From assembly GCA_947500445.1 (NCBI GenBank), contig CANMSB010000010.1, positions 62,001 through 126,000 of the forward strand: a stretch of 64,000 nucleotides of DNA. The letters run 5' to 3'. The notes under the pieces are model-generated. The model saw nothing but the letters and a program-made list of their open reading frames with translations. It did no database searches and had not been told where the DNA came from. Origin of the DNA: an uncultured Flavobacteriaceae bacterium (lineage in GTDB: Bacteria; Bacteroidota; Bacteroidia; Flavobacteriales; Flavobacteriaceae). Made by a program: the position numbers and the translations under genes. Positions 4,742 to 48,004 of the stretch are shown here, in pieces; position 1 is the stretch's first letter; each line of letters starts with the position of its first letter.

Positions 4742-6676
4742 ATGAAAAAAATCATCTATTTAGCGGCACTATTTTATATGTCGACTTCCTATTGCCAAAA
4801 AGACCATGGGCAGCAGTACATAGACACCTTTCAGATGCGCCCCATTACCATTGAAAAATTGGAGGGGTTCAAAAAAAAACTGCAAAGCAACGAGGAGTTA
4901 AAAGGATGGACCAAATACTATGCCTTTCGTTGTTACTACTTTTTTAGAAAGATGAAAAAGGATTCGGCCTTGTTTTACGCCGACAAAGCCATAAAGCACC
5001 ATCGTAATTTTGAAGCCGATCAAGAATATCAAACATCAAATCTTCAAAGGGTACATTTTGTCCGAGGCTACTACGCAAGATTGGACGACCGATATAAAGA
5101 AGCGGTAACGCATTACCACAAAGGGCTTAAAATTGCTCGTTTTGATGAAAAATTGTTTTCAAAGAAAAGTAACTACCTACCGTACATCGCTAGAGACCTT
5201 GGTAATTCGTATTTAAAATTGGGGTATCTATCGTCCGCTAAAAAGTACTATTCAGGACTATTGACCAATTTATGGTTCATGAATCGGGCCGGATGGGAAG
5301 TACACCATAAATTGGGATTAATTTACAGTTACCAAAAAGTGGTCGATTCCGCTGACTATCACTTTCATAAAGGGTTATCGTTGATCGATACAAAATTTAA
5401 GGAGCATAAAAATTACGAGGAGTACAAAGCCACCTTTTATGGAAACTTGGGAAGTCTATTTCTTCTTAAAAAAGAAAAAGATTCCGCAATACATTACTTC
5501 AAATTAATAAAAGAAACCGGGGAGTTCGCTCCTTCGTCCCGCTTACCCAAACGCAATACCATTTCAGACCTTTATCGAATAATTTACGGGTCATATGTCG
5601 CTATTTGGGAGGGTAGGAACAAGCCTGCCATAGAAAATCTAAAATCGGTTCAAAAGGCTATTGAAAAGAATGAATTGGACCAAAAAGACAGGGCGGTACA
5701 AGACTTGCGGACAAAAACCTTGGATGGACTTATTATGGCGTATACCGCCATGGCCGACTTTAGGGCGGCATTTGAAACAAGCTTGAAAAAAAATGCCCTT
5801 GACCAAACCGTTAACGACCGAATTCTCAGGGAGAATTTGGAAGAATTGGAAGCGATTTTTGAAGTTCGCGAAAAAGAACGAAAAATAGGTGCTCTCGAAA
5901 ACATAAGCCACACCCAGGAATCAAGTATAAAACAGCAGAAAACCATAATTTACTTCCTCCTTTTTTTACTTCTCATCATTTGTCTAATAGGGTATCTCTT
6001 ATGGGAACAGAAAAATTTAAAAAACAAATTGGACAAAGAATATTTAAAACAGAAACTGTTGCAAACGCAATTAGATCCACACTTTGTTTTTAATACCTTA
6101 AACTGTATTTATCATTTGACCCATAAAAATGCCATGGCCGCAGCGAGCTACATCTTGAAATTTTCTAAATTGCTGCGCTTGGTGTTGCAAAATTCCCGGG
6201 AAGAGTTTGTTTCCCTAAAAGACGAAATCAGCACGATTCAGAACTATATGGAACTCCAGTCGCAATTTGTGAAAAAATTTGATTTCAGCATCAACTGCGA
6301 TAATCAATTGTCACAAGATGACATTTTTCTACCACCCATGTTCGTTCAACCCTTTATCGAAAACACCATAGACCACGGATTCCGGTCGGACAATGGCAAT
6401 CTGCTCACTATTGATATTAACATTGATAAAATAAAAAACATACTAGAATTTACAATAGTGGACAACGGAATAGGGTACTATAATACCCTTAAGGACAAAA
6501 CAACAAAAGTAACCGAAAGGCACCGGTCATTATCGGGAAAAATTCTTGAAGAGCGCCTTTTGCTATATGCGAATTCGTTACGGACCGATGCTACATACGA
6601 AATTCAATATGCCGACGAGAAACACCAACTTGGAACCAGGGTACAGTTACAAATACCTTTTATAAACGAAACGTAA
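4742..6676 (+). CDS. TPR-containing sensor histidine kinase (LytS/YehU-like)
   Basis: A 644-aa membrane kinase. It has a signal peptide (1-18, ending SYCQ), a TPR-rich periplasmic region (about 60-350, with helix pairs such as YKEAVTHYHKGLKIA and DSAIHYFKLIKE), a coiled segment, one membrane span (about 402-424), then a His_kinase domain with the phospho-acceptor His near 446 in QLDPHFVFNTLN and an HATPase domain (MFVQPFIENTIDHGF, then VDNGIGY). This is the usual Bacteroidota partner of LytTR regulators; the cognate regulator is the divergent gene at 3786. The signal is unknown. ATG at 4742 gives a good signal peptide. Confidence 0.93.
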   Translation: MKKIIYLAALFYMSTSYCQKDHGQQYIDTFQMRPITIEKLEGFKKKLQSNEELKGWTKYYAFRCYYFFRKMKKDSALFYADKAIKHHRNFEADQEYQTSNLQRVHFVRGYYARLDDRYKEAVTHYHKGLKIARFDEKLFSKKSNYLPYIARDLGNSYLKLGYLSSAKKYYSGLLTNLWFMNRAGWEVHHKLGLIYSYQKVVDSADYHFHKGLSLIDTKFKEHKNYEEYKATFYGNLGSLFLLKKEKDSAIHYFKLIKETGEFAPSSRLPKRNTISDLYRIIYGSYVAIWEGRNKPAIENLKSVQKAIEKNELDQKDRAVQDLRTKTLDGLIMAYTAMADFRAAFETSLKKNALDQTVNDRILRENLEELEAIFEVREKERKIGALENISHTQESSIKQQKTIIYFLLFLLLIICLIGYLLWEQKNLKNKLDKEYLKQKLLQTQLDPHFVFNTLNCIYHLTHKNAMAAASYILKFSKLLRLVLQNSREEFVSLKDEISTIQNYMELQSQFVKKFDFSINCDNQLSQDDIFLPPMFVQPFIENTIDHGFRSDNGNLLTIDINIDKIKNILEFTIVDNGIGYYNTLKDKTTKVTERHRSLSGKILEERLLLYANSLRTDATYEIQYADEKHQLGTRVQLQIPFINET

Positions 6677-6688
6677 AATCCGACGATA

Positions 6689-6706
6689 AGCCAAAGGCTT
6701 TTTTAA
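6689..6706 (+). terminator. Short weak terminator after the histidine kinase gene
   Basis: AGCC-AAA-GGCT followed by six T, 13 bp past the stop codon. The 4-bp stem is short, so this is a weak call. Confidence 0.35.
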
Positions 6707-6786
6707 AATGGTACTTTTAGCTAACCATAATTCTTCACTCTCGGTTTCGGTCGGGAACAGATGGTTTACAAAACAGAAGGCAAGAA

Positions 6787-7596
6787 TTATCCTACTTCAG
6801 AGACCGCACCGGGAAGTCGTAAATTATTCAAATAATTGATTACAAGCCCATTGAACAGTTGTGGTTGCTCCACATTGACCACATGCCCGCAAAATTGAAT
6901 GGTTACCAAAGTGCTCGCCTTATGTTTTTGCACTACGTTTTCTACGGTCGGTAAAAAAAGATGGTCCTCTCCTCCCATTACATATAGCGTAGGAATTTCA
7001 ATATCGGCCCCTCGAAAGAAGCGCAACAAAGGGTTTATCTCCGAAGTGAGTTTAAACCAGCGGATAAATTCTTTTTGATATAACTTTTTGGCTTCCCTAA
7101 CGAACAACGATCTTGACTCGCGATGATTTTTGTTGGGCATAATGATGAACGCGAAAAATTTATACAACCAAATGTACGGCACTATCGATTTAAAGATAAC
7201 GCCCAACCGCATGAGTACCTGTGATCTAAAATCCAGTTTCATGATCGCTCCGCCCATTACCATACTCGATACCTTCTCCGGATATTTTTCGGCCAAATTG
7301 CGAATTAAAATGGTCCCTAAAGAGATACCCACAAAATGTGATTCGGGAATGTTTTCATAATCGATTACCTCAACAATGTCATCAGTAATGGAGTCGAAGG
7401 TGTATTTGTCGCTAAAAGCATCCTTGAGATTGGGCTTTGAATTGCCATGACCTCGCAAATCGAGCAATAGCACGTTAAAATACTTTTTGAACTCCCTAAG
7501 TTGCTTATGCCAGATGGAAGAACTGCCTCCCGCACCGTGTACAAAGGTCACCCACTGGGTAGCTTCGGTGCGCACGTAGGTAGTATAGTTTAGCAT
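6787..7596 (-). CDS. Alpha/beta-fold hydrolase
   Basis: A 269-aa cytoplasmic alpha/beta hydrolase. The oxyanion region VHGAGGSSSIWHKQ is near residue 20, LLLDLRGHGNS near 45, the nucleophile elbow G-I-S-L-G near 93, the acid Asp in MGGEDHLF near 220 and catalytic His in QFCGHVVNVEQP near 245. Substrate is not predictable. The frame is open to a TTG at 7638, but ATG at 7596 (MLNYTTYVRTEATQ) gives the usual family N-terminus. A 159-bp mobile element lies about 95 bp upstream and may separate the gene from its original promoter. Confidence 0.85.
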   Translation of the reverse strand: MLNYTTYVRTEATQWVTFVHGAGGSSSIWHKQLREFKKYFNVLLLDLRGHGNSKPNLKDAFSDKYTFDSITDDIVEVIDYENIPESHFVGISLGTILIRNLAEKYPEKVSSMVMGGAIMKLDFRSQVLMRLGVIFKSIVPYIWLYKFFAFIIMPNKNHRESRSLFVREAKKLYQKEFIRWFKLTSEINPLLRFFRGADIEIPTLYVMGGEDHLFLPTVENVVQKHKASTLVTIQFCGHVVNVEQPQLFNGLVINYLNNLRLPGAVSEVG

Positions 7597-34721: not shown

Positions 34722-36131
34722 TTATTTTTTCTTGAAATTGAAATAGGTGTTGGCATTATGGTAACAAATATCCTGAACCACCTGGCCAATATGTGCCATG
34801 TCTTTGGGCAAATGCCCCTTTTGAATATCGTTTCCAAAAATGTTGCACAACAATCTTCTAAAATACTCGTGTCTTGGAAAGGATAGGAAGCTGCGGGAAT
34901 CAGTCAACATGCCTACAAAACAGCTGAGCAATCCCATATTGGAAAGGGCGTTCATTTGCCGTTCCATTCCATCCAATTGATCCATATGCCACCAACCCGA
35001 ACCGAACTGTACCTTTCCACGGATACTTCCATCGTTGAAGTTTCCCGCCATGGTGGCGAAAACCTCGTTCTGGGAGGGGTTCAAATTATATAATATTGTT
35101 TTTGCCAACTGATCCGTAACATCCAAGGCGTTCAAAAACTTGCCCAAAGCATGTGCTTGATGAAGGTCTCCTATGGAATCGAAACCCATATCGGGACCGA
35201 GGGCATCAAATTTTCTTCGGTTTACGTTCCTTAACGGTCCGAGGTGAAATTGCTGTACCCAACCCAAACGTGCATACTCCCGACAGAGCTGCAATAACGT
35301 ATGGTATTTGAAATAATGCAGCGCTTCCAATTTCAGCTCCTTTCCGGATGAAATCCGTTGGAATACCGTTTCAATATCGTACGTACCTTCGGTGACGTAG
35401 TACATTTGCTCCATACCGTGATCGGCCGACCGACATCCGTTGGCGTCAAAAAATGCGATTCTGTTTTTAAGTGCGCCGATCAGCTCCTCGAAAGAAGTAA
35501 TGGATTGCCCTGCCGACGCGGCCAATTTTTCAAGATAGCTTTTGTATTCGGTATGATTTTCCGCAGCCAACGCCTTATCGGGCCTAAAAGACGGGAACAT
35601 ACGAAGTGGGCCATCACTTTTCGCCATTTGTTGATGATACTCCAAGGAATCGATGGGATCGTCGGTCGTGCATACGACCTCCACTTCCATTTGCCGTAAA
35701 AGCCCTTGTACACTATGGGTAGGTTCCTGTAATCGTTCTTCGGTACGGTCATAAATTTCCATTGCGTTCGCTCCGGTTAGCAGTGCATCGATACCGAAGT
35801 ACCGTTTAAGTTCCAGGTGCGTCCAATGGTACAAGGGGTTCCGTAAGGTAAACGGAACGGTTTCCGCCCATTTCGCAAACTTTTCCCGATCGGAAGCCGT
35901 GCCGGTAACATAGGCTTCATCGACACCGAACGTTCGCATGGCGCGCCACTTGTAATGGTCCCCGACCAACCAAGCATGGGTCAGGTTTTGAAACTTATGG
36001 TCGGCCGCTATATGGCCTGGGGAAAGGTGGTTGTGGTAATCGACAATGGGTACGGTAGCCGCGTAGTTGTGGTACAGCTCCTCGGCGTAAGCGCTTTCCA
36101 ATAGAAAGTTGTCATGCATAAATTGCTTCAT
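34722..36131 (-). CDS. uxaC: Glucuronate/galacturonate isomerase
   Basis: Isomerises D-glucuronate to D-fructuronate (and galacturonate to tagaturonate). The 469-aa amidohydrolase-fold protein opens with [14 protein letters not shown] (metal-type HxH motif near residue 33), has [13 protein letters not shown] near 155, [13 protein letters not shown] near 293, and ends with the family's [25 protein letters not shown]. Length matches E. coli UxaC (470). It overlaps uxuA by 4 bp (ATGA). No uxaB or uxaA is present, so the glucuronate branch is the main route here. Confidence 0.95.
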
Positions 36132-37327
36132 ACCATGGCTTTTTCGATACCCATTTTCAATCCCCTTAACTCCGCAAGTCCCCGCAAACGTCCGATACCG
36201 GAATACCCGGGATTCGTTTGTTTCCTGAGATCGTCCAGCATCTGATGCCCGTGGTCGGGCCGCATAGGTATTTGATCATCTTCCCTACCCTCGGAAGTGC
36301 GGCGTTGCTGCTCCAATACGATATGTTTTACGATTTCGAACATATCGGCATCCCCTTCCAAATGATTCGCTTCATAAAAATTGCCCTGTCCGTCCCTGGT
36401 CGTGTTCCGCAAATGCAGAAAATGCACCCGATCGGCAAAACGTCGGAAAATTTCGGGCAGATCGTTATCCGCCAAAACCCCCAGTGACCCCGTGCAGAAT
36501 GTCATACCATTATTAATGGCGGGTACCGCTTTAAAAATATGGGCGTAATCGTCACTGTTACACATGATTCTGGGCAGTCCCAAAATCGAAAATGGCGGAT
36601 CATCGGGATGAATGCACATTCGCACTCCTTCTGCCTCGGCGACGGGCATAATCGCGTTCAGGAAGTGGACCAAATTGTCCCGCATTTTGTTTTCATCGAT
36701 TCCTTTATAGGTATCCAAAATTTCTTGGAACCGGGCAAGATCATAGCCTTTTTCGGGAACCGGATAGCTTTCTTCCGAACCCGGCAATCCGGCAATAATA
36801 GTTTTCACCAGTTGCCATGTTTCCTTTTCGGACATGGTTTCAAAATAGGCTTTCGCCTTCATCACCTCTGTATCGGAATAGGCATCTTGGGCACCCGGTC
36901 GTTTTAAAACAAAAAGATCAAAGGCCCGTAAGGCATCGCTATTGAATTCCAGCGCTTTTGACCCATCGGCCAGTTCCAGATCCAATCGGGTCCGGGTCCA
37001 ATCCAAAACCGGCATAAAATTGTAACAGACCACATGAATACCACAACGGGCCAGGTTTACCAAACTTTGTTTGTAGTTGTCGATATGGCGTTCGAACGCT
37101 CCCGAACGGGTTTTGATCTGTTCGTGTATGGGAAGCGACTCTACCACGGACCACACCAAGCCGGCATCTGCGATCTGCTGTTTGCGTTTCTCAATTTCCT
37201 CTACGGGCCAAACCGCTCCATTGGCGATGTGGTGCAAGGCCGTAACAATTCCCGTGGCGCCCGCCTGTTTGATATCGGACAAACTCACCGGGTCGTCGGG
37301 ACCGTACCATCTCCAAGTTTCTATCAT
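36128..37327 (-). CDS. uxuA: Mannonate dehydratase
   Basis: Dehydrates D-mannonate to 2-keto-3-deoxygluconate. The 399-aa TIM-barrel protein begins [33 protein letters not shown], the UxuA signature, and has metal/substrate motifs [18 protein letters not shown] near 235, FCTGSLGV near 275, VHFLHLRNT near 300 and MRPDHGHQM near 350. Length matches E. coli UxuA (394). It lies 19 bp after the SDR gene and overlaps uxaC. Confidence 0.96.
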
Positions 37328-37346
37328 TTTTTAAGCTATTCCGTTG

Positions 37347-38171
37347 TTAAACACCGCTAAAGGCACTGAAACCACCATCTATAGGGATAATGGCCCCAGT
37401 AACAAAACTGGCGGCACCGCTCAAAAGCCAGTGTATGGTACCGTTGAGCTCGTCCGCTTCACCAAAACGCTTCATCGGCGTATTGGCAACGATAGTGTTT
37501 CCGCGAGCGGTATAACTACCGTCCTCATTGGTCAACAAACGTCGGTTTTGATTGCCGATAAAAAATCCGGGCGCTATGGCATTTACCCGAACCTTATCCC
37601 CAAACTTGGTAGCCAGCTCGGTGGCCAGCCAACGGGTAAAAATATCGATTGCCGCTTTGGAGGTCGAATACCCCACTACCCTAGTAACCGCCTGCGTGGC
37701 CGTCATGGACGAAATGTTTATGATACAACCCGCTCCGGCATGCGCCATTGCTTTCCCAAAAACAAGGGATGGCATTACCGATCCGTCCAAATTGAGTTGC
37801 GACACTTTTCTAAAATCATCCATTTCCAGGTCAAAGATCGTTTGATCCTCCCCGATGGTGGCTCCCGGCATGTTCCCCCCGGCAGCATTGATCAATGCAT
37901 CTATCCTACCCCATTTGTGCAGCAAAGCCTCCTTTATATTTTCCAGATCCGGCTTCGAAAGCACACTGCCCACATACCCGACCACCTGTTCGCTTATCGT
38001 TTTTAACGAGTTTACCTTAAGGTCGATAGCCTCTTGATTTAAATCGATCAAGGCCACTTTGGCCCCCGCCGATAAAAGATATTTGGCCATATTGCTCCCC
38101 AGAACTCCTACCCCACCGGTAATGACGATAACATTACCGGAAATATCAAATATGTTGGGATTCATTTTCAA
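37347..38171 (-). CDS. SDR-family fructuronate reductase (D-mannonate oxidoreductase)
   Basis: A 274-aa short-chain dehydrogenase. It has the cofactor motif TGGVGVLG (18-25), NAAGG near 93, the catalytic Ser in IINISSM near 150 and YSTSKAA near 168, and the C-terminal PFDG-type ending IPIDGGFSAFSG. The position as first gene before uxuA and uxaC, with no classical UxuB elsewhere in the operon, makes it the fructuronate-to-mannonate reductase; SDR enzymes with this role are known. ATG 38171. The divergent Nudix regulator starts 142 bp away. Confidence 0.88.
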   Translation of the reverse strand: MKMNPNIFDISGNVIVITGGVGVLGSNMAKYLLSAGAKVALIDLNQEAIDLKVNSLKTISEQVVGYVGSVLSKPDLENIKEALLHKWGRIDALINAAGGNMPGATIGEDQTIFDLEMDDFRKVSQLNLDGSVMPSLVFGKAMAHAGAGCIINISSMTATQAVTRVVGYSTSKAAIDIFTRWLATELATKFGDKVRVNAIAPGFFIGNQNRRLLTNEDGSYTARGNTIVANTPMKRFGEADELNGTIHWLLSGAASFVTGAIIPIDGGFSAFSGV

Positions 38172-38227
38172 TTGTGTTTGGATACTTTTACGGTCAAAAG
38201 AAATACTTTTGGCGCTTTCGTTTAATC

Positions 38228-38244
38228 TGTGTACTTTTTACACA
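38228..38244. promoter_or_regulatory. Candidate operator in the uronate operon/regulator divergent region
   Basis: TGTGTA-CTTTT-TACACA is a perfect 6-bp dyad. It lies 57 bp upstream of the SDR start and 70 bp upstream of the regulator start. NrtR-type regulators bind palindromes in divergent regions, so this is the best candidate site in the 142 bp. Confidence 0.45.
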
Positions 38245-38313
38245 CATTTATCGAAAATATGTTTTTTTAGAAGAATAGAAAAATAAAACCGTATAAACTT
38301 TGTTACCGATTTT

Positions 38314-38988
38314 GTGGAAAAAGAGCAGTTACAACATATTCAAGTAAAGTCCGACTCCTTCGAATGCTCCGTAACAACGGACATTGCCGTATTTGGATAC
38401 GTAGAGGGCAGTTTTAAAATATTGCTTACCAAAAGAACCGTTGGCGACTTTAAAAACCGATGGCTTTTACCCGGTGGTGCAATGGAAGATAAAGAGACCT
38501 TGGAAGACTGTGCCGAAAAAGTACTGTTCGCCCTAACGGGATTCAAGGATATCCATTTTGAACAGGTACGGGCCTATAGCGCCCTATTGCGCCACCCGAT
38601 AAAACGGGTGATCACCATCTGTTTTTATGCCTTGGTAAAGCCGGAAAACCACCCCTTGGCCCTCAAAGGCGATGTTGAAGAAATTGCCTGGTTCGATATG
38701 GACCGTATCCCGGAAAATTTGGGATTCGACCATGGGCAATTGCTAAGGGACGCCCATACCCACATGAAGGACAACTTGAAAGATAAGCTTGTTGTTGGGG
38801 AGCTGCTGCCCCAAAAATTCACGCTCGCGGAACTCCAGAACCTTTATGAGACCATTCTCGGTACGCGCTTGGACAAAAGAAACTTTCGAAAACGTATTCT
38901 ACAAATGGATTTGCTTGAAAACACTAACGAGAAAAAAATTGGCGTGAAAGGGGGACCTTTGTTGTACCGTTACAAAAAGAAACGTTAG
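38314..38988 (+). CDS. Nudix-domain winged-helix transcriptional regulator (NrtR/AraR-like)
   Basis: A 224-aa regulator. Residues 20-150 form a Nudix fold (TDIAVFGYVEGSFKILLTKR, NRWLLPGGAMEDKETLEDCAEKVLFALTG). The catalytic REUXEE core of the Nudix box is replaced by AEKVLFALTG, so hydrolase activity should be lost. Residues 160-220 form the winged helix of this family (FTLAELQNLYETILGTRLDKRNFRKRILQMDLLE). Members act as sugar-responsive repressors in Bacteroidota (AraR type). Divergent from the uronate operon, which it probably controls with a uronate-derived effector. Start is GTG 38314. Confidence 0.88.
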   Translation: MEKEQLQHIQVKSDSFECSVTTDIAVFGYVEGSFKILLTKRTVGDFKNRWLLPGGAMEDKETLEDCAEKVLFALTGFKDIHFEQVRAYSALLRHPIKRVITICFYALVKPENHPLALKGDVEEIAWFDMDRIPENLGFDHGQLLRDAHTHMKDNLKDKLVVGELLPQKFTLAELQNLYETILGTRLDKRNFRKRILQMDLLENTNEKKIGVKGGPLLYRYKKKR

Positions 38989-39075: not shown

Positions 39076-40347
39076 ATGAAATGGTCAAAAAAATCGTCCT
39101 TATTGCTTTTATTCGCTTTTCCTTTGCTCTTTGGACAATTAAAAACGGACACTATGGTATTGAATGATTTTTTAGCCCTTGCTAGAACGGAGCTTATTAC
39201 AACGGCATTGGAGCGCTTGAACGTTGTTGAAAACAGTACGTATACGGTAGCGGATTTTAATGCCGTTCGCGTATTGAAAAGTACCCACAGCATCAAAGTC
39301 CAGTTTGCGAACACTATCCTTTATATACCCGAAAACGAAAGCTTTTATAGCGATATTGAAATTACCCTACCCGCCAATGAAGTTCACAAATTTGGAATTG
39401 AGGGGGATGGAACTGTCCAAAATAAGGGGCTCTATCGACCCAAGGCTTCGGATGCGGCGCCTATCGGTTTTGTACTACAACATTTAAACATCGATCCATT
39501 GAACAATCGTTATCGAAATTTTTATGATGCAAAGCTCTGTATTTTTGAAAAAGGGGCCACTTATGAAATCCGCGAAAAAACGAAGACCCCTGAAAAGGGA
39601 GGGGGGTATCGTATTATGGTAATGGATAAGAGCACAGGGGAAACCCTATCCAAACTAGAGGGCTCCTATGCCCGGACCAAGGGTCCGACTCCTCTGGGCC
39701 AACAGGAGGTTTTTGAAGAAATAATCGATAATTCTACGGCGGTCGACCGGTTGATCGCCTCCGGGAGATCGAATATTATCGCGCTCGCGCTACAGCAAAT
39801 TAACAAGGCCCAAAAGAAACCTATAACCGTAACGGATTTTCATTTTGTGCGCGTGATGGCGAACCACATCAAAATAGAAGTACAGTTTGGATTTAATCTT
39901 CGTTTTAGCACCACGGAAAATAGCTACTATAAAGACATTAAAGTCACACTTCCCGACAATTTTGTTTCCGGCGCCCGAGACTATGACAACGATTTCACTA
40001 CAAATTCGAACTTGAACCAAGAGGATTCAGAAAAGCTTCAATTTGTTTTAGAGGCCCTTAAATTCGATACGACCTACATGTCGAAAGGATTTCAACCCGG
40101 AATCATTACCATATCGGAACAGGACGACTATTTTACTTTTTCGGACGAAACCCGGTTTCCCGAATTGGGCGGAGGGTTCTCATCGCAGGATATCGAAAAG
40201 GAGACCGGAAAGGTCGGTGCTATGCTCCAAGGCCATTACGAAAGAGACCCCCATTTGGGATTCAAAAGGGAAATCGACCTGAAACATAATGATATGAAGA
40301 TGGTGCCCATACCGGAACATGAAAAATTTCGGGAAATTACGGACTGA
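39076..40347 (+). CDS. Secreted protein with two tandem copies of an unknown domain
   Basis: A 423-aa exported protein with signal peptide (1-20, LLLLFAFPLLFGQ). The mature part is an internal duplication of about 165 residues. Copy 1 (about 28-195): LARTELITTALERLN, TVADFNAVRVLKSTHSIKVQF, NESFYSDIEITLPAN, LEGSYAR. Copy 2 (about 232-395): ASGRSNIIALALQQIN, TVTDFHFVRVMANHIKIEVQF, ENSYYKDIKVTLPDN, LQGHYER. Each copy also ends with a PE.GGG segment (TPEKGGGY, FPELGGGF). No family recognised; no T9SS sorting domain or lipobox, so it is probably periplasmic. No clear operon partners. Confidence 0.8.
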   Translation: MKWSKKSSLLLLFAFPLLFGQLKTDTMVLNDFLALARTELITTALERLNVVENSTYTVADFNAVRVLKSTHSIKVQFANTILYIPENESFYSDIEITLPANEVHKFGIEGDGTVQNKGLYRPKASDAAPIGFVLQHLNIDPLNNRYRNFYDAKLCIFEKGATYEIREKTKTPEKGGGYRIMVMDKSTGETLSKLEGSYARTKGPTPLGQQEVFEEIIDNSTAVDRLIASGRSNIIALALQQINKAQKKPITVTDFHFVRVMANHIKIEVQFGFNLRFSTTENSYYKDIKVTLPDNFVSGARDYDNDFTTNSNLNQEDSEKLQFVLEALKFDTTYMSKGFQPGIITISEQDDYFTFSDETRFPELGGGFSSQDIEKETGKVGAMLQGHYERDPHLGFKREIDLKHNDMKMVPIPEHEKFREITD

Positions 40348-40660: not shown

Positions 40661-41581
40661 TTATTCGTCCACCCAATCAAAAAACTTCGAGGTAATGGCC
40701 GTTTTTTCCCTTTCCAAATATTCGAGAAAGGACGCGGCGACCGGGGATAGCTTTTTCTTTTTTCGCCAAACCAAGTTCCATTGGGTCTCTATCGGTAGTC
40801 CATCAAAAGGAATAACGCTGATCGCCCCTTGGTTCACTGCGTTCCGAATTCCGATCATCGGCATAATGGAATACCCTAAGCCCGCAATAACGGCCTGTTT
40901 TAGTGCTTCATTGGAAGTCAACTCAATTTTTTTACTGACCGGTAAGTTCTTACCTTGAATAAAGGCTTCCATGGCATTGCGTGTTGCCGAACCTTGCTCG
41001 CGGTACAATAAGGGCTGTTCCTTAAAAATGAGTTGTTCGCTCCCCTCCCTGTTCGTTTCGTGCACCGCGCTACCTACCAAATATAAACGGTTGGGCAGCA
41101 AGGGCATTCGCGACAGTTCCAAATGATCGGGCAGTACCGAAACCAGCGCAAAATCTACTTTGTTTTCTTCCAGGTCCCGCACTACTTTAAGTTTATTGGT
41201 CACATCCATTGAAAAATCGATATCCGGATGTGCGTTTACAAAATCAGAGAGGTAGTACGGCATTACGTATTTGCCCGTGGAGACCACAGAGATGGAGAGT
41301 TTGCCCGCTAACTTCCCTTGATATCTGCTGGTTTTATATTCAATGGCCGCAACTTCCTCCAAAATTCGTTTTGCCGCTACGGCAATTTCCGTACCGAACG
41401 GAGTAACGTATAACTTTCTACCAATAACCTCTGTTAATGGGAGCGGAAACTGATCTTGAAACTTCTTGAGCTGGATGGAAACGGCCGGTTGGGTCAAAAA
41501 CAACGCTTCGGAAGCCTTGGTCACGCTGCCCTTGTTCACTATTTCGACAAACACCTGAAGCTGATGCAAAGTATACTTCAT
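40661..41581 (-). CDS. LysR family transcriptional regulator
   Basis: A 306-aa regulator: helix-turn-helix at 1-60 (LHQLQVFVEIVNKGSVTKASEALFLTQPAVSIQLKKFQ) and a two-lobed effector domain (90-295), with SIQLKKFQDQF and ISVVSTGKYVMPYYLSDFV resembling CbbR/CynR-type members. ATG 41581 is preferred to the TTG 6 bp earlier. Divergent from an SbtA-like bicarbonate transporter operon; a T-N11-A LysR box lies 10 bp before its own start. Control of inorganic carbon uptake is the natural inference. Confidence 0.93.
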   Translation of the reverse strand: MKYTLHQLQVFVEIVNKGSVTKASEALFLTQPAVSIQLKKFQDQFPLPLTEVIGRKLYVTPFGTEIAVAAKRILEEVAAIEYKTSRYQGKLAGKLSISVVSTGKYVMPYYLSDFVNAHPDIDFSMDVTNKLKVVRDLEENKVDFALVSVLPDHLELSRMPLLPNRLYLVGSAVHETNREGSEQLIFKEQPLLYREQGSATRNAMEAFIQGKNLPVSKKIELTSNEALKQAVIAGLGYSIMPMIGIRNAVNQGAISVIPFDGLPIETQWNLVWRKKKKLSPVAASFLEYLEREKTAITSKFFDWVDE

Positions 41582-41590
41582 AAACAATTC

Positions 41591-41605
41591 TTATGTATTT
41601 CATAA
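41591..41605. promoter_or_regulatory. LysR-type binding box (T-N11-A)
   Basis: TTATG-TATTT-CATAA is a perfect 5-bp dyad containing the T-N11-A pattern (T41592, A41604) of LysR regulators, 9 bp upstream of the lysR ATG. A second, looser dyad, TTCATA at 41599 and TATGAA at 41624, shares its right half. Placement suits autorepression and activation of the divergent operon. Confidence 0.6.
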
Positions 41606-41674
41606 TAAATATAAATAAAAATATATGAATTAAAATACCCAGCTTTGCAGTGTTAAATTAAAAATCGTTTTATC

Positions 41675-41956
41675 ATGGACATACAACGGAATCTAAAATT
41701 TACCACCGAACACGTACGGACCGAGCCAAGGACCAGCCCCCTTGTAAAGTTTGAAGGAACGGAACTGATCGAAAACTTTCGCATTTTTCTGACAGTACTT
41801 TTTTTTATCGGTTACTTCGCCGCCTTACTTTTTAGTTGTATCACCTACAATCCAATGTTTTGGAGTTTGGTAAAAGTAGGTGTCATTTGCGGTCTGGTCG
41901 GTTTTATAGCCTTTCATTCAAACAAATCAGTCATATTAAAAACAAACAACAAATGA
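41675..41956 (+). CDS. Small two-span membrane protein in the SbtA operon
   Basis: A 93-aa protein: soluble, basic N-terminus (MDIQRNLKFTTEHVRTEPRT), then two membrane helices (about 36-58, FLTVLFFIGYFAALLFSCIT, and 64-82, LVKVGVICGLVGFIAF) and a basic tail. No known family. Its stop overlaps the start of the next gene by 4 bp (ATGA-type), so all three genes are co-expressed. It may be an accessory or regulatory subunit of the transporter. Confidence 0.72.
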   Translation: MDIQRNLKFTTEHVRTEPRTSPLVKFEGTELIENFRIFLTVLFFIGYFAALLFSCITYNPMFWSLVKVGVICGLVGFIAFHSNKSVILKTNNK

Positions 41957-42246
41957 AAACCTTAACAGCAGTAGCCCACAAAGTACAATTGGTAGATGGT
42001 GTTTTCACCGCAACGGAAGCAAAAGATGTGGTCAATTCCTTGATCAACGAAAAAGTCAATTTTCACAAAATCCAGCGCCTTGCCATGTGCGAAGGGGATT
42101 GCGATAGCGACACCAGTTACGATGATGGCCGCGTAGCGCAATTGCTACAGGAAAAAGAAAATTTTAAGGAAGTGTACCAAGAGGCGAAACTTTCTGGTAA
42201 AAAAGTGCGTATCAGCGGCGTTCTGACCGTTGACATCATCGACTAA
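41953..42246 (+). CDS. 97-aa soluble protein of unknown function in the SbtA operon
   Basis: The start ATG 41953 overlaps the upstream stop; the longer open frame to 41836 is not needed. Pattern: VQLVDGVFTATEAKDVVNSLINEKVNFHKIQ, an acidic Cys-containing loop MCEGDCDSDTSYDDGR, a charged helix with LLQEKENFKEVYQEAK, and a final strand GKKVRISGVLTVDIID. I recall small flavobacterial proteins with a similar F-x-P/T-x-EA...FH start and strand end, all unnamed. It is not a PII-type SbtB. The Asp-rich loop could bind a metal. Confidence 0.7.
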   Translation: MKTLTAVAHKVQLVDGVFTATEAKDVVNSLINEKVNFHKIQRLAMCEGDCDSDTSYDDGRVAQLLQEKENFKEVYQEAKLSGKKVRISGVLTVDIID

Positions 42247-42266
42247 CCGCATTCACGTAACAATCA

Positions 42267-43229
42267 ATGGATATACAGCTCTTAGGGGATAACCTGACCA
42301 ACCCTGCCCTATTGTTCTTTATTCTTGGACTAATAGCATCGCAACTCAGGAGCGATCTGGAAATCCCTAAGAACTCGTCCAAATTCATATCCCTGTACCT
42401 CTTGCTGGCCATTGGCTTTAAAGGTGGTCAGGAATTGGCGCACAGTACCTTCAACGCCGATATTCTATGGGCCGTGGTACTCGGGCTGTTACTGGCCTTA
42501 CTGGTTCCATTGTACACCTATTTCATTCTAAGGCTCCGGTTCAGTGTGGAAAACGCCGGCGCCATTGCCGCGGCTTACGGTTCGGTAAGCGCAGTCACTT
42601 TTGTTACGGCCATTAGTTTCCTGGAAATGGAGCAAATCGATTTTGGCGGCCACATGGTTGCGGTAATGGCCTTAATGGAAGCGCCCTCGATAATCGTAGG
42701 GGTATTGTTAATGCGTATTTACTCGAATGGAAAACGCTCTACCCGCGAACTCTTGGGTCTAGTAAAGCACGCACTCACCAATGGAAGCGTGTTGTTGATA
42801 TTGGGCAGTTTGGTTATCGGTTTTATGGCCAACGATGAACAGGCCGCAGGTATCAAACCTTTTACGACAGATATTTTTAAAGGATTTTTAGCAGTGTTCC
42901 TGTTGGATATGGGCATCACTAGCGGTAAAAAAATCGGTTCGCTTATCAAAAAAGGATGGTTCGCGCTACTTTTCGCCATTTTAGTACCCTTGATTAACGG
43001 AATTGCCATTGCCAAACTTTCCGGTAGTTTCTTGAGCGGTGACGGCGACCGCTTTTTGTTGGCCATATTGGCCGCAAGTGCCTCATATATTGCCGTACCC
43101 GCGGCCATGCGTATCGCGGCACCCAAAGCAAATCCAAGTTTGTACTTGCCCATGGCCCTTGCCATTACCTTTCCTTTCAACATCACCTTAGGAATGCCGA
43201 TATACCTGTATGTTATCCAGCATTTGTAA
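42267..43229 (+). CDS. SbtA-like sodium-dependent bicarbonate transporter
   Basis: A 320-aa membrane protein with about ten spans of the SbtA family (formerly DUF897). Landmarks: LTNPALLFFILGLIASQLRSDLEIP at the start, LLLAIGFKGGQELA near 46, AGAIAAAYGSVSAVTFVTA near 93, and in the second half LDMGITSG near 213, ASASYIAVPAAMRIAAP near 271. The inverted repeat of the fold is visible in the paired GFKGG / DMGITSG segments. In heterotrophs it would supply bicarbonate for carboxylases. LysR is divergent. Transport substrate is by family only. Confidence 0.88.
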   Translation: MDIQLLGDNLTNPALLFFILGLIASQLRSDLEIPKNSSKFISLYLLLAIGFKGGQELAHSTFNADILWAVVLGLLLALLVPLYTYFILRLRFSVENAGAIAAAYGSVSAVTFVTAISFLEMEQIDFGGHMVAVMALMEAPSIIVGVLLMRIYSNGKRSTRELLGLVKHALTNGSVLLILGSLVIGFMANDEQAAGIKPFTTDIFKGFLAVFLLDMGITSGKKIGSLIKKGWFALLFAILVPLINGIAIAKLSGSFLSGDGDRFLLAILAASASYIAVPAAMRIAAPKANPSLYLPMALAITFPFNITLGMPIYLYVIQHL

Positions 43230-43381: not shown

Positions 43382-44170
43382 ATGAAGCTTGGTTTTAAAC
43401 ATATTTGGCCGGTATTGCTTTTGGTAGGATGCGGTCCAAAAATTACTTCTTCAAAAGTTTGGCAGGGACAACGGAAGGCGGCTATATGCCTTACCTATGA
43501 TGATGGGATGCAATCACATTTGGACGTGGCCATTCCCCAATTGGACCGTCTTGGCTTACGGGGAACGTTTTATCTGAACACCGTAAAAGAAAGAGATAAC
43601 ATACTTGGCTGGAAAGCAGCCGCAAGAGCTGGACATGAATTGGGAAACCATAGTCTTTTCCACCCGTGCCCAAATTCCTTTGGTTGGCCTAAAGAACTCA
43701 CTACCGAAAACTATACCGTAGCGGATATTTTAAAGGAAATTGAAGCGGTGAACCATCTTCTTAAGAACTTGGATCCGAACCGAAAGCGCTTTTCCTATGC
43801 ATATCCCTGCAATAACACTGAGGTTGGTTCAAAATCTTATATTGTACCCCTTAAAAAATCAGGGCTCATACAATACGCAAGAGGCGGTGGCAAAACACCG
43901 ATCGTAACTACTGATTTTGACAATTTAAATCGCATGCACGTGTATTCTTGGGCCGTTCCCGAAGGCACAACCGCAACGGCCCTTATTGCCTTTGCGCAAA
44001 AGGCAAAACAAGATGGCGGCCTCGCCGTATTTCAGTTCCATGGCGTGGATGGGGAATGGATAAAAGTATCGGGGGAAGCGCACGAAAAATTACTTGAATT
44101 TCTTTCGGACAACGCTTCGGAATATTGGGTGGCACCATTTTCAGAAATTATGGACCATTTGTACAGGTAA
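43382..44170 (+). CDS. Polysaccharide deacetylase family lipoprotein
   Basis: A 262-aa NodB-fold protein with lipobox Cys17 (VLLLVGC). The metal-dependent deacetylase site is clear: Asp40-Asp41 in CLTYDDGMQSH and His90/His94 in ELGNHSLFHPC; the catalytic tail has FQFHGVDGEW near 220. Such enzymes remove N- or O-acetyl groups from chito-oligosaccharides or other glycans. ATG 43382. Single gene; nothing nearby identifies the substrate. Confidence 0.9.
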   Translation: MKLGFKHIWPVLLLVGCGPKITSSKVWQGQRKAAICLTYDDGMQSHLDVAIPQLDRLGLRGTFYLNTVKERDNILGWKAAARAGHELGNHSLFHPCPNSFGWPKELTTENYTVADILKEIEAVNHLLKNLDPNRKRFSYAYPCNNTEVGSKSYIVPLKKSGLIQYARGGGKTPIVTTDFDNLNRMHVYSWAVPEGTTATALIAFAQKAKQDGGLAVFQFHGVDGEWIKVSGEAHEKLLEFLSDNASEYWVAPFSEIMDHLYR

Positions 44171-47031: not shown

Positions 47032-47589
47032 ATGGATTTCATTCTAGACCCTTGGCCGTGGTATGTATCCGGCCCTTTGATTGCCATAGTGATGCTGCTG
47101 TTGGTTTTTTTTGGTAAGACATTCGGAATGTCGTCCAACCTGCGTACCCTTTGTGCTATGGGTGGTGCCGGCAAACATGCCGATTTCTTCGCCTTTGATT
47201 GGAAATCCCAAAAGTGGAACCTAACCGTGGTGGCGGGAGCGATTATCGGGGGTTTTGTTGCCGTGACATTTTTATCCGATCAAAAACCCATTGCCTTAAA
47301 CCCCGAAACGGTTGCAGCTTTGAGCGAGTTGGGGTTTGAAAAGGTCGGTGCGGCGCTTTTGCCCGGCGAACTTTACGATTGGGATCAGGTTTGGAGCGTC
47401 AAGGGCATGTCCATTATTTTAATCGCTGGCTTTTTGGTAGGGTTTGGTACCCGCTATGCCGGAGGATGCACCTCGGGACATGCCATTACCGGGCTTAGCA
47501 ATCTGCAGTTGCCTTCATTGATCGCGGTAATCGGTTTTTTTATTGGTGGGTTGTTGATGACCCATGTACTCTTCCCATTAATTTTTTAA
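47032..47589 (+). CDS. YeeE/YedE family sulfur transport protein, first half
   Basis: A 185-aa membrane protein with about five spans. The YeeE/YedE (DUF395) signature GTRYAGGCTSGHAITGLSNLQLPS with its conserved Cys is at about 143-165, and SSNLRTLCAMGG near 36-47 gives a second Cys. These Cys residues are thought to relay thiosulfate or sulfane sulfur through the membrane. It is followed 1 bp later by the second half; together they match the length of one full YeeE. Confidence 0.9.
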   Translation: MDFILDPWPWYVSGPLIAIVMLLLVFFGKTFGMSSNLRTLCAMGGAGKHADFFAFDWKSQKWNLTVVAGAIIGGFVAVTFLSDQKPIALNPETVAALSELGFEKVGAALLPGELYDWDQVWSVKGMSIILIAGFLVGFGTRYAGGCTSGHAITGLSNLQLPSLIAVIGFFIGGLLMTHVLFPLIF

Positions 47590-47590
47590 G

Positions 47591-48004
47591 ATGAAGTTTC
47601 TAAAATTTTTAAGTGTCGGTATATTGTTCGGTATCATCTTGGTGAAATCGGAAGCGGTATCGTGGTACCGTATTTATGAAATGTTCCGATTTGAAGCCCT
47701 GCACATGCATGGTATTATCGGGTCCGCAGTCGGTGTGGGTATGCTCGGGCTGTTCCTATTCAAACGAATGGGGGTCAAGGATGTGGCGGGAAACTCCATT
47801 GCACTTCCCCAGAAAAAGAAGTCCCTTATACGATACCTTGTGGGCGGCTCGTTATTCGGCCTGGGATGGGCGTTGGCGGGCGCATGCCCCGGTCCGATGT
47901 ATGTTTTAATCGGTACCGGTAATTATAGTGTTGTGCTCTTAATATTTGCGGCACTGATCGGCACTTTTGCATACGGACTGGTGAAAGAAAAGTTACCGCA
48001 TTAA
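47591..48004 (+). CDS. YeeE/YedE family sulfur transport protein, second half
   Basis: A 137-aa, four-span partner of the upstream gene (DUF6691-type half). It has AGACPGPMYVLIGTG near 96, the second half's conserved Cys motif, and begins with a membrane helix followed by LHMHGIIGSAVGVGMLGL. The one-base spacing shows coupled translation. Split YeeE pairs of this kind usually sit with rhodanese or MBL-fold sulfur dioxygenase genes; none is present here. Confidence 0.9.
   Translation: MKFLKFLSVGILFGIILVKSEAVSWYRIYEMFRFEALHMHGIIGSAVGVGMLGLFLFKRMGVKDVAGNSIALPQKKKSLIRYLVGGSLFGLGWALAGACPGPMYVLIGTGNYSVVLLIFAALIGTFAYGLVKEKLPH

Follow-up and report, generated by a model that had tools for sequence, protein, structure and literature searches.

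How is a bicarbonate importer of the SbtA family controlled in a bacterium whose operon lacks the PII-like SbtB protein? The question is raised by a locus of an uncultured Flavobacteriaceae bacterium (assembly GCA_947500445.1, contig CANMSB010000010.1, positions 62,001 to 126,000; this whole stretch of 64,000 nucleotides is called the window), in which a gene for a LysR-type regulator is divergent from the genes for a small membrane protein (P93), a small soluble protein (P97) and an SbtA homologue. The explanation that we consider fairly likely as a whole is that positions 40661-43229 form an inorganic-carbon (Ci) uptake cassette, composed of an NdhR-like LysR, its operator, P97 and an exchangeable importer. 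Comparison with the corresponding loci of relatives shows a divergent LysR gene over a conserved operator and promoter, facing P97 and an exchangeable set of genes—SbtA with the small membrane protein, the DabB-DabA (DAB) pump with a related small membrane protein, or isocitrate dehydrogenase (IDH). The parts of the cassette in the window are as follows.

40661-41581, minus strand: lysR, counted from the ATG (an alternative TTG start is possible at 41587)
41579-41595, no strand: LysR box CATAA-N7-TTATG (T-N11-A type), with the CATAA half at 41579-41583, overlapping the lysR start codon, and the TTATG half at 41591-41595
41591-41605, no strand: dyad TTATG-N5-CATAA, 9 bp before the lysR ATG, the less conserved register
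41602-41627, plus strand: conserved A+T core ATAATAAATATAAATAAAAATATATG, which extends the operator in the promoter direction and has 0 mismatches to the pattern
41640-41647, plus strand: CAGCTTTG, at the place of the conserved t.A..TTTGc
41675-41956, plus strand: P93, small membrane protein of 93 amino acids with two predicted transmembrane helices
41953-42246, plus strand: P97, soluble protein of 97 amino acids with an ATG at 41953, from a family without a Pfam model
42267-43229, plus strand: homologue of the SbtA-family (PF05982) Na+-dependent bicarbonate transporters, 320 amino acids, by Pfam profile

The start of P97 overlaps the stop of P93 via ATGA, and sbtA begins 20 bp beyond the end of P97. 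A preliminary description, made from the letters of this DNA alone, had reported the two-span and the soluble protein in overlapping genes before SbtA, all of which are present at that place. It had also found no SbtB gene in the operon, and this is confirmed; the single P-II match of the source genome adjoins an AmtB-like gene, recognised as such by eye.

The importer and the regulator

The SbtA homologue matches PF05982 (Sbt_1) over the complete profile (positions 1-308 of 308; E 6.1e-113, 377.6 bits with a cut-off of 27), and its sole match in the PDB up to E 1 is the SbtA structure 7cye (E 2.3e-25). By sequence it is an SbtA-family bicarbonate transporter homologue with a predicted substrate. 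Concerning the residues around the docked HCO3- of Synechocystis SbtA, the alignment gives S114 and S324 as kept (S108 and S273 here), while Y140 and S327 correspond to M134 and A276; the Na+ positions compared (Y104/G105/S106 and A269/S271) are main-chain contacts.

The nearest solved relatives of the LysR protein in a PDB sequence search are 5y2v (6.4e-49), 5z49 (5.2e-34) and 5y2w (5.9e-28), the next different protein being 8sbf (1.1e-22). In the PDB, 5y2v is named 'Rubisco operon transcriptional regulator', a name borne also by 5y2w, and we take it to be NdhR (NdhR/CcmR); 5z49 is the regulatory domain of CmpR. The window regulator thus appears nearest to the NdhR/CmpR/CbbR kind, and it scores 173.8 bits with the NCBIfam CbbR model NF045990, well under the cut-off of 450 bits. 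The contacts of 2-oxoglutarate in NdhR are given, in a review (PMC13249358), as Ser224, Asn225, Tyr105 and 'Lys10', the last of which is read here as Lys104, since K104 adjoins Y105 in the chain numbering. At the aligned positions the window LysR has K104, Y105, S223 and N224, conserved in 125, 131, 124 and 130, respectively, of 131 orthologous LysRs (two distant LysRs having been set aside). As the same review reports that CmpR uses the same interface for another ligand (PMC13249358), these residues do not fix the effector of the window protein. In the 2-phosphoglycolate site of NdhR, T102, N164, R194 and T200 are kept and T101 is replaced by S.

Linkage, operator and exchange of importers

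The association of the genes was followed in 60 relatives, in an even sample of 299 Flavobacteriaceae genomes, in 247 genomes of the class and in a sample of 228 genomes of the phylum, with P97 searched by profile A1 in the family and A3 in the class, SbtA defined as PF05982 over its cut-off and DabA as PF10070. Among the 60 relatives, P97 occurs in 15 and SbtA in 14, the two standing side by side in 12 of the 14. The 299 genomes yielded 77 P97 matches in 66 genomes (two of the matches overlap at one place in G251 and contain stop codons), 46 SbtA matches (two weak ones, in G005 and G181, were omitted) and 24 DabA matches. As many as 68 of the 77 P97 matches lie beside SbtA (44) or DabA (24), on the same strand and within 2.3 kb; seen from the importers, with a limit of 6 kb, P97 is present at 39 of the 46 SbtA loci—40 if a weaker match in G268 is counted—and at 21 of the 24 DabA loci. 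By genome, 59 have both P97 and SbtA or DabA, 7 and 7 have only the one or the other, and 226 have neither (Fisher p 2.7e-46, a nominal value for genomes that are related). The P97 match is within 122 bp of the SbtA match in 39 of the 44 linked cases. Its side of sbtA varies, upstream or downstream depending on the genome, so that the link survives rearrangement. A set of 80 named loci—from Kordia, Aquimarina, Maribacter, Allomuricauda, Nonlabens, Winogradskyella, Saprospirales and others—has SbtA in 65, DabB and/or DabA in 8 and neither in 7.

Beyond the family, 44 of the 247 class genomes have a match to P97, 66 to SbtA and 56 to DabA, and in the phylum sample P97 was found in 15 of the 228 genomes, one of them outside the class. 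Neither SbtA nor DabA accompanies 23 of the 51 class-level P97 matches; 19 of these 23, at 15 loci, stand beside IDH, with LysR at 12 of the 15 (the locus of G429 was not fetched, and the match there, with E 6.2e-4 within a frame of 1938 amino acids, is probably false). When 137 distinct P97 loci were gathered, LysR was found within 4.5 kb at 120, SbtA at 84, DAB at 22 and IDH at 27, LysR or a transporter being present at 134; these loci were mostly chosen for carrying P97, with repeated P97 sequences dropped, so that estimates of frequency are to be taken from the family count (6 kb) and the class count (4 kb). The conserved linkage that the preliminary description had proposed to look for is thus borne out in the family. 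That description had named small genes widely without SbtA, and SbtA widely without them, as what would speak against it, and this was found in part, P97 standing also with DAB, IDH or LysR alone, and 7 of the 46 SbtA loci of Flavobacteriaceae (6 counting the weaker match) and 47 of the 68 SbtA matches of the class having no P97 nearby. It should be added that 20 of these 47 were inspected, one of which (L266) then gave a weak P97.

The second line of evidence comes from the DNA between lysR and its target. The preliminary description had pointed to the dyad TTATG-N5-CATAA, which is the sole exact match in the window (0.09 expected, with at least one in 9 of 100 shuffles) and on such single-sequence statistics is weakly significant. 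Among 129 distinct LysR/target intergenic regions it is exact in 17, whereas CATAA-N7-TTATG is exact in 69 and has at most one mismatch in 112, at one fixed position in 105 of the 112, where CAT is the lysR start codon read from the opposite strand; the 129 regions are kin rather than independent, and the left half of the N7 box is partly the start codon itself. In 20 shuffle sets the commonest dyad reached 5-9 regions. The N5 dyad is therefore real DNA inside a real operator, the conserved register of which, judged by comparison, is N7. The consensus of the shared operator reads CATAAAt..t.tTTATGt.tt..ATaA.AAATATAAATAAAAATatATgAat........t.A..TTTGca, and its conserved t.A..TTTGc, found at CAGCTTTG in the window, resembles the -7 element of Bacteroidota, with the consensus TAnnTTTG.

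The operator recurs over different sets of target genes. At one mismatch or fewer, the N7 box is found in 60/67 regions of loci with P97 and SbtA, 16/18 with DabA and P97, 14/16 with IDH and P97 and 10/12 with P97 only, as well as in 6/9 with SbtA but not P97, 3/4 with IDH, P97 and SbtA, 2/2 with IDH and SbtA and 1/1 with IDH alone, compared with 20/387 mononucleotide shuffles. For the A+T core, at three mismatches or fewer, the first four counts are 62/67, 18/18, 13/16 and 11/12, followed by 7/9 for SbtA without P97 and 4/4 for IDH, P97 and SbtA, with 4/387 in shuffled sequences. These counts argue for one operator common to the SbtA, DAB and IDH loci. In the source genome, the core at 41602-41627 is the sole site with three mismatches or fewer, and a scan with this pattern and threshold found no further regulon members; since a control with the reversed pattern likewise gives 1, the core-site count alone is not above chance and the site is recognised through its place.

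The small membrane protein behaves differently from P97. P93 has two hydrophobic segments, modelled as a helix hairpin (28-57 and 62-90, mean pLDDT 73.9), and in one-sequence searches, to which the E-values refer, it matches the profile of the group TM87 with 46.5 bits and, weakly, the TM79 profile with 12.1 bits, and has no match to TM71 and TM80. In the hhalign comparisons, TM71 is connected to each of the other three groups, and TM79 to TM87, with probabilities of 92-97, and the values for TM80 against TM79 and against TM87 are just 16-17; the links may be partly due to common hydrophobicity. A member of these groups stands beside P97 at 55 of the 84 SbtA loci and 18 of the 22 DAB loci (73 of 106 transporter loci), compared with 0 of 17 IDH-only loci and 1 of 14 others. 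As such proteins occur at transporter loci but not at IDH-only ones, the membrane protein goes with the importer and P97 with the LysR regulon.

Several observations bear on the exchange of the importer. On a quick tree of LysR proteins (131 rows), the DAB label requires at least four changes, at least two of them forced by well-supported branches. The genome G005 has a decayed locus (L052, G005:C58, 7165-7580) with LysR and pieces that look like IDH and sbtA and, elsewhere, a complete P97-TM-DabB-DabA operon (L049, G005:C13, 8012-12649), which may show a Ci importer in the course of being replaced by another one. In G213, P97 and LysR remain in a gene setting that in relatives includes sbtA (L091), and DabB-DabA is encoded at another place (L099). 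In G251 a P97 match beside DabB-DabA is broken by stop codons (L124, G251:C1, about 6600-6880), so P97 can be lost while the pump stays.

P97 and the competing explanations

Neither P97 nor P93 reaches any Pfam or NCBIfam cut-off. For 101 homologues of P97, the Pfam matches at E ≤ 0.1 are weak and scattered, each in at most three members, and P-II is not among them (25 of the 26 matched families were inspected); an SbtB-like control sequence matched P-II at 1.1e-11. Residues L13, F18, H38 and L64 are invariant and G16, E22, K34, F37 and R60 nearly so. The AlphaFold2 model (pLDDT 92.5) consists of a strand (7-18), two helices (20-46 and 55-81) and a second strand (85-94), whereas SbtB has a ferredoxin-like fold with a T-loop (PMC8352866). 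The idea of P97 as a diverged PII protein was rejected on both grounds, the missing P-II match and a beta-alpha-alpha-beta model lacking the ferredoxin-like fold and T-loop. A Foldseek search of the PDB with the model found nothing at E ≤ 0.001 (best 0.31), and the best VIA-align hit (Z 7.7, rmsd 2.6) covers 61 residues of a plain helix hairpin and lies inside the stated background; folds absent from the VIA-align list prove nothing, and its 7uq2, a cyclic-nucleotide-binding phage protein (Z 7.1), was given no weight. Going by the register of the helix hairpin, H38 and K34 of the first helix would be expected close to R60 and L64 of the second, a possible candidate site for an anion or a partner. 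The preliminary description had suggested that the loop CEGDCDSD could sense metal or redox state; the loop is variable, with both cysteines in 5 of the 101 homologues (C46 in 48, C50 in 8), and such sensing as a feature of the family was dismissed.

Is P97, then, what SbtB is elsewhere? Among distinct loci, a PII-like gene stands beside SbtA at 0/84 with P97 and at 6/27 without it (p 1.3e-4; before repeats were dropped 0/92, p 8.5e-5), the 6/27 being a lower bound, since at L264 a neighbour that escaped the profile looks PII-like by eye. The suggestion of the preliminary description that the small proteins could be a different regulator holds insofar as they stand in the place of SbtB; a regulator specific for SbtA it does not make of P97. 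At some loci without P97 (L092, L095, L096 and L265), SbtA is accompanied by LysR and a beta-carbonic anhydrase. At two others, the gene immediately before SbtA, next to a divergent LysR gene, encodes another small soluble protein (L273:6766-7149 and L274:4820-5128), which the P97 and PII-like profiles used do not match; it is possibly a third type of SbtA partner.

In the mechanism proposed here, HCO3- for anaplerotic and other carboxylations would run short, a metabolite of the tricarboxylic acid (TCA) cycle would alter the binding of LysR, and the importer would be switched on. The effector would most likely be 2-oxoglutarate, bound at the NdhR-type interface; the presence of IDH, which makes 2-oxoglutarate and neighbours the loci of many relatives, fits such a signal. 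The small membrane protein would serve as a dedicated partner of the importer, assisting or restraining it like the cyanobacterial SbtC, and P97 as a soluble feedback component in the position of the PII-like SbtB. Given that P97 is found with DAB, with IDH and with LysR alone as well, it would act more likely at a shared level—the LysR itself, or the Ci/2-oxoglutarate signal—than as a plug of SbtA.

Several observations weigh against this explanation. Within 4 kb, P97 accompanies just 21 of the 68 SbtA and 4 of the 58 DabA matches of the class (nine short fragment rows of the 67 for DabA were omitted, and a pair in G441 misses the limit by 13 bases), and 31 of the 137 P97 loci have no transporter, 17 of them with IDH and 14 with neither. 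P97 is dispensable, too, as loci with SbtA and LysR but without P97 exist (L092, L094-L097), and the fact that P97 and SbtB exclude each other may reflect no more than a separation of lineages. If any same-strand small reading frame with two hydrophobic segments is accepted as a membrane protein, the contrast described above weakens to 69/84 SbtA, 18/22 DAB, 3/17 IDH-only and 3/14 other loci. The A+T core is missing (more than three mismatches) at both of the loci that have IDH and SbtA together but no P97 and at the single IDH-only locus, and the 2-phosphoglycolate site of NdhR is altered in the window LysR (H130 to K, R267 to T). Finally, with just two of the four docked HCO3- residues kept, the substrate of the window SbtA is not proven.

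This last point could mean that the PF05982 protein carries another substrate and that the cassette is not about bicarbonate at all, two of the four modelled contacts being different; given the exchange with DabB-DabA under the same operator, a LysR nearest to NdhR and CmpR, and neighbouring genes for carbonic anhydrase or PII-like proteins in certain relatives, we regard this as very improbable. A direct replacement of SbtB, with P97 gating import by binding SbtA (or DabA/DabB) on the cytosolic side, would agree with its position in the operon, with its closeness to SbtA (39 of 44 within 122 bp) and with the fact that PII-like genes and P97 were not seen together beside SbtA; this is nonetheless unlikely, as P97 is found also beside the unrelated DabB-DabA, beside IDH at 17 loci and at 14 further loci that have no transporter and no IDH, and its model has no PII fold.

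The remaining alternatives move P97 away from the importer. It might be a partner of LysR—a co-activator, an anti-activator or a ligand carrier—in which case the transporters and IDH would be no more than target genes, LysR being its most constant neighbour (120 of 137 loci, 28 of them without a transporter) and the P97-only loci retaining the operator (dyad 10/12, core 11/12). Set against this are 14 of the 137 loci with a transporter and no LysR within 4.5 kb (12 of them among the 108 loci with 4.5 kb of DNA on both sides), although LysR could act there in trans, and several LysR-SbtA loci without P97; such a role is somewhat unlikely. We doubt that P97 acts instead on IDH or on the turnover of CO2 and 2-oxoglutarate in the TCA cycle, the importers having joined the regulon later: an IDH matching PF00180 and PF18324 (one member tested) is near P97 at 27 of the 137 loci, in several families, but within Flavobacteriaceae most P97 genes stand with importers, and IDH occurs at a minority of those loci.

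Returning to the Ci uptake cassette, we lean towards P97 being a regulator of some kind, and, if so, its occurrence beside DAB, IDH or LysR alone means that it is not specific for SbtA. In the cassette as conserved among marine flavobacteria, the importer changes between SbtA and DAB while LysR, its DNA site and P97 persist, which makes P97 a promising candidate for a component of bicarbonate control that is new and not of the PII kind. The wider proposal—that P97, a soluble helical-hairpin protein, founds a new non-PII family of Ci homeostasis in Bacteroidota, serving the unrelated importers SbtA and DAB and the TCA enzyme IDH under one NdhR-like, 2-oxoglutarate-responsive LysR and standing in for the SbtB of cyanobacteria and of certain other Bacteroidota—is tentative and falls somewhat short of being probable.

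Two other proteins recur at these loci. A CutA1-like gene lies near P97 at 23 of the 137 loci, sometimes next to P97/IDH in distant families (L240, L241, L254), one member tested (L182:4758-5075) being over the PF03091 cut-off; CutA1 is a trimeric ferredoxin-like protein, so the role of a PII-like signal protein might, as a second candidate, fall to the CutA1-like protein. At 13 loci, L246:6335-7171 among them, a DUF6671 protein is encoded in the vicinity of P97, IDH or SbtA (PF20376, from the one member tested). As for the surroundings in the window, the next gene downstream of sbtA, at 43382, encodes a polysaccharide-deacetylase homologue (Pfam scan) that looks unrelated to the cassette. Positions 39076-40347 encode a protein of 423 amino acids with two similar halves by eye and no Pfam match up to E 1; by eye, too, two adjoining genes at 47032-48004 resemble transporters of sulfur compounds of the YeeE/YedE type, and 36128-38988 contains a mannonate-dehydratase-like gene and a short-chain dehydrogenase beside a NUDIX-type protein resembling NrtR regulators.

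Comparison with known carbon-uptake systems

The closest known counterpart is the cyanobacterial SbtA-SbtB(-SbtC) system under NdhR/CcmR, with which the window shares an SbtA-family transporter, the same kind of LysR and a small soluble protein in the operon. Both also have a gene for a small membrane protein upstream of sbtA (SbtC there, P93 here), a likeness of position and predicted helices; P93 has two of these and SbtC perhaps one, according to a commentary (PMC13360264), which reports for Synechocystis that SbtC assists or restrains the importer. The operators are alike in being short AT-rich dyads, ATAG-N8-CTAT for NdhR (PMC13249358) and ATAA-N7-TTAT here. Unlike SbtB, P97 is not PII-like and has no Pfam P-II match, and, unlike in cyanobacteria, the same kind of regulator and P97 serve also DAB pumps and IDH in relatives, the host being taken as a heterotroph.

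With the DAB/MpsAB pumps, the comparison concerns the importer itself: DabB-DabA is the transporter at 22 of the 137 P97 loci, usually under the same LysR operator, where the window has SbtA instead. These loci have P97, and 18 of the 22 the small membrane protein; the operon of S. aureus has mpsC, reported as dispensable (PMC6689103). Concerning CmpR/CbbR, the divergent arrangement is the same as here and 5z49 (CmpR) is a solved relative, although the window LysR stays below the NCBIfam CbbR cut-off. The sites of CmpR/CbbR have a TNA-N7-TNA-like spacing, which is alike here.

To our knowledge, the control of bicarbonate uptake in heterotrophic marine bacteria has been little studied. A bias of sbtA towards proteorhodopsin-bearing Flavobacteriia has been reported (PMC5932025). 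Neither the cassette nor P97 was recognised in any publication searched, most subscription papers lying outside that search. The cassette offers parts that can be tested, namely one operator, a regulator whose effector is predicted, and two families of proteins that Pfam does not name, and it asks directly whether the PII-like control of SbtA is replaceable. Work in which Ci pumps are moved between organisms would profit from a regulator that SbtA and DAB have in common. Compared with the known systems, LysR-controlled SbtA is already familiar from cyanobacteria; what is new, as far as seen, is the exchangeable cassette of Bacteroidota, its operator and the two Pfam-nameless families, one of them standing where SbtB would.

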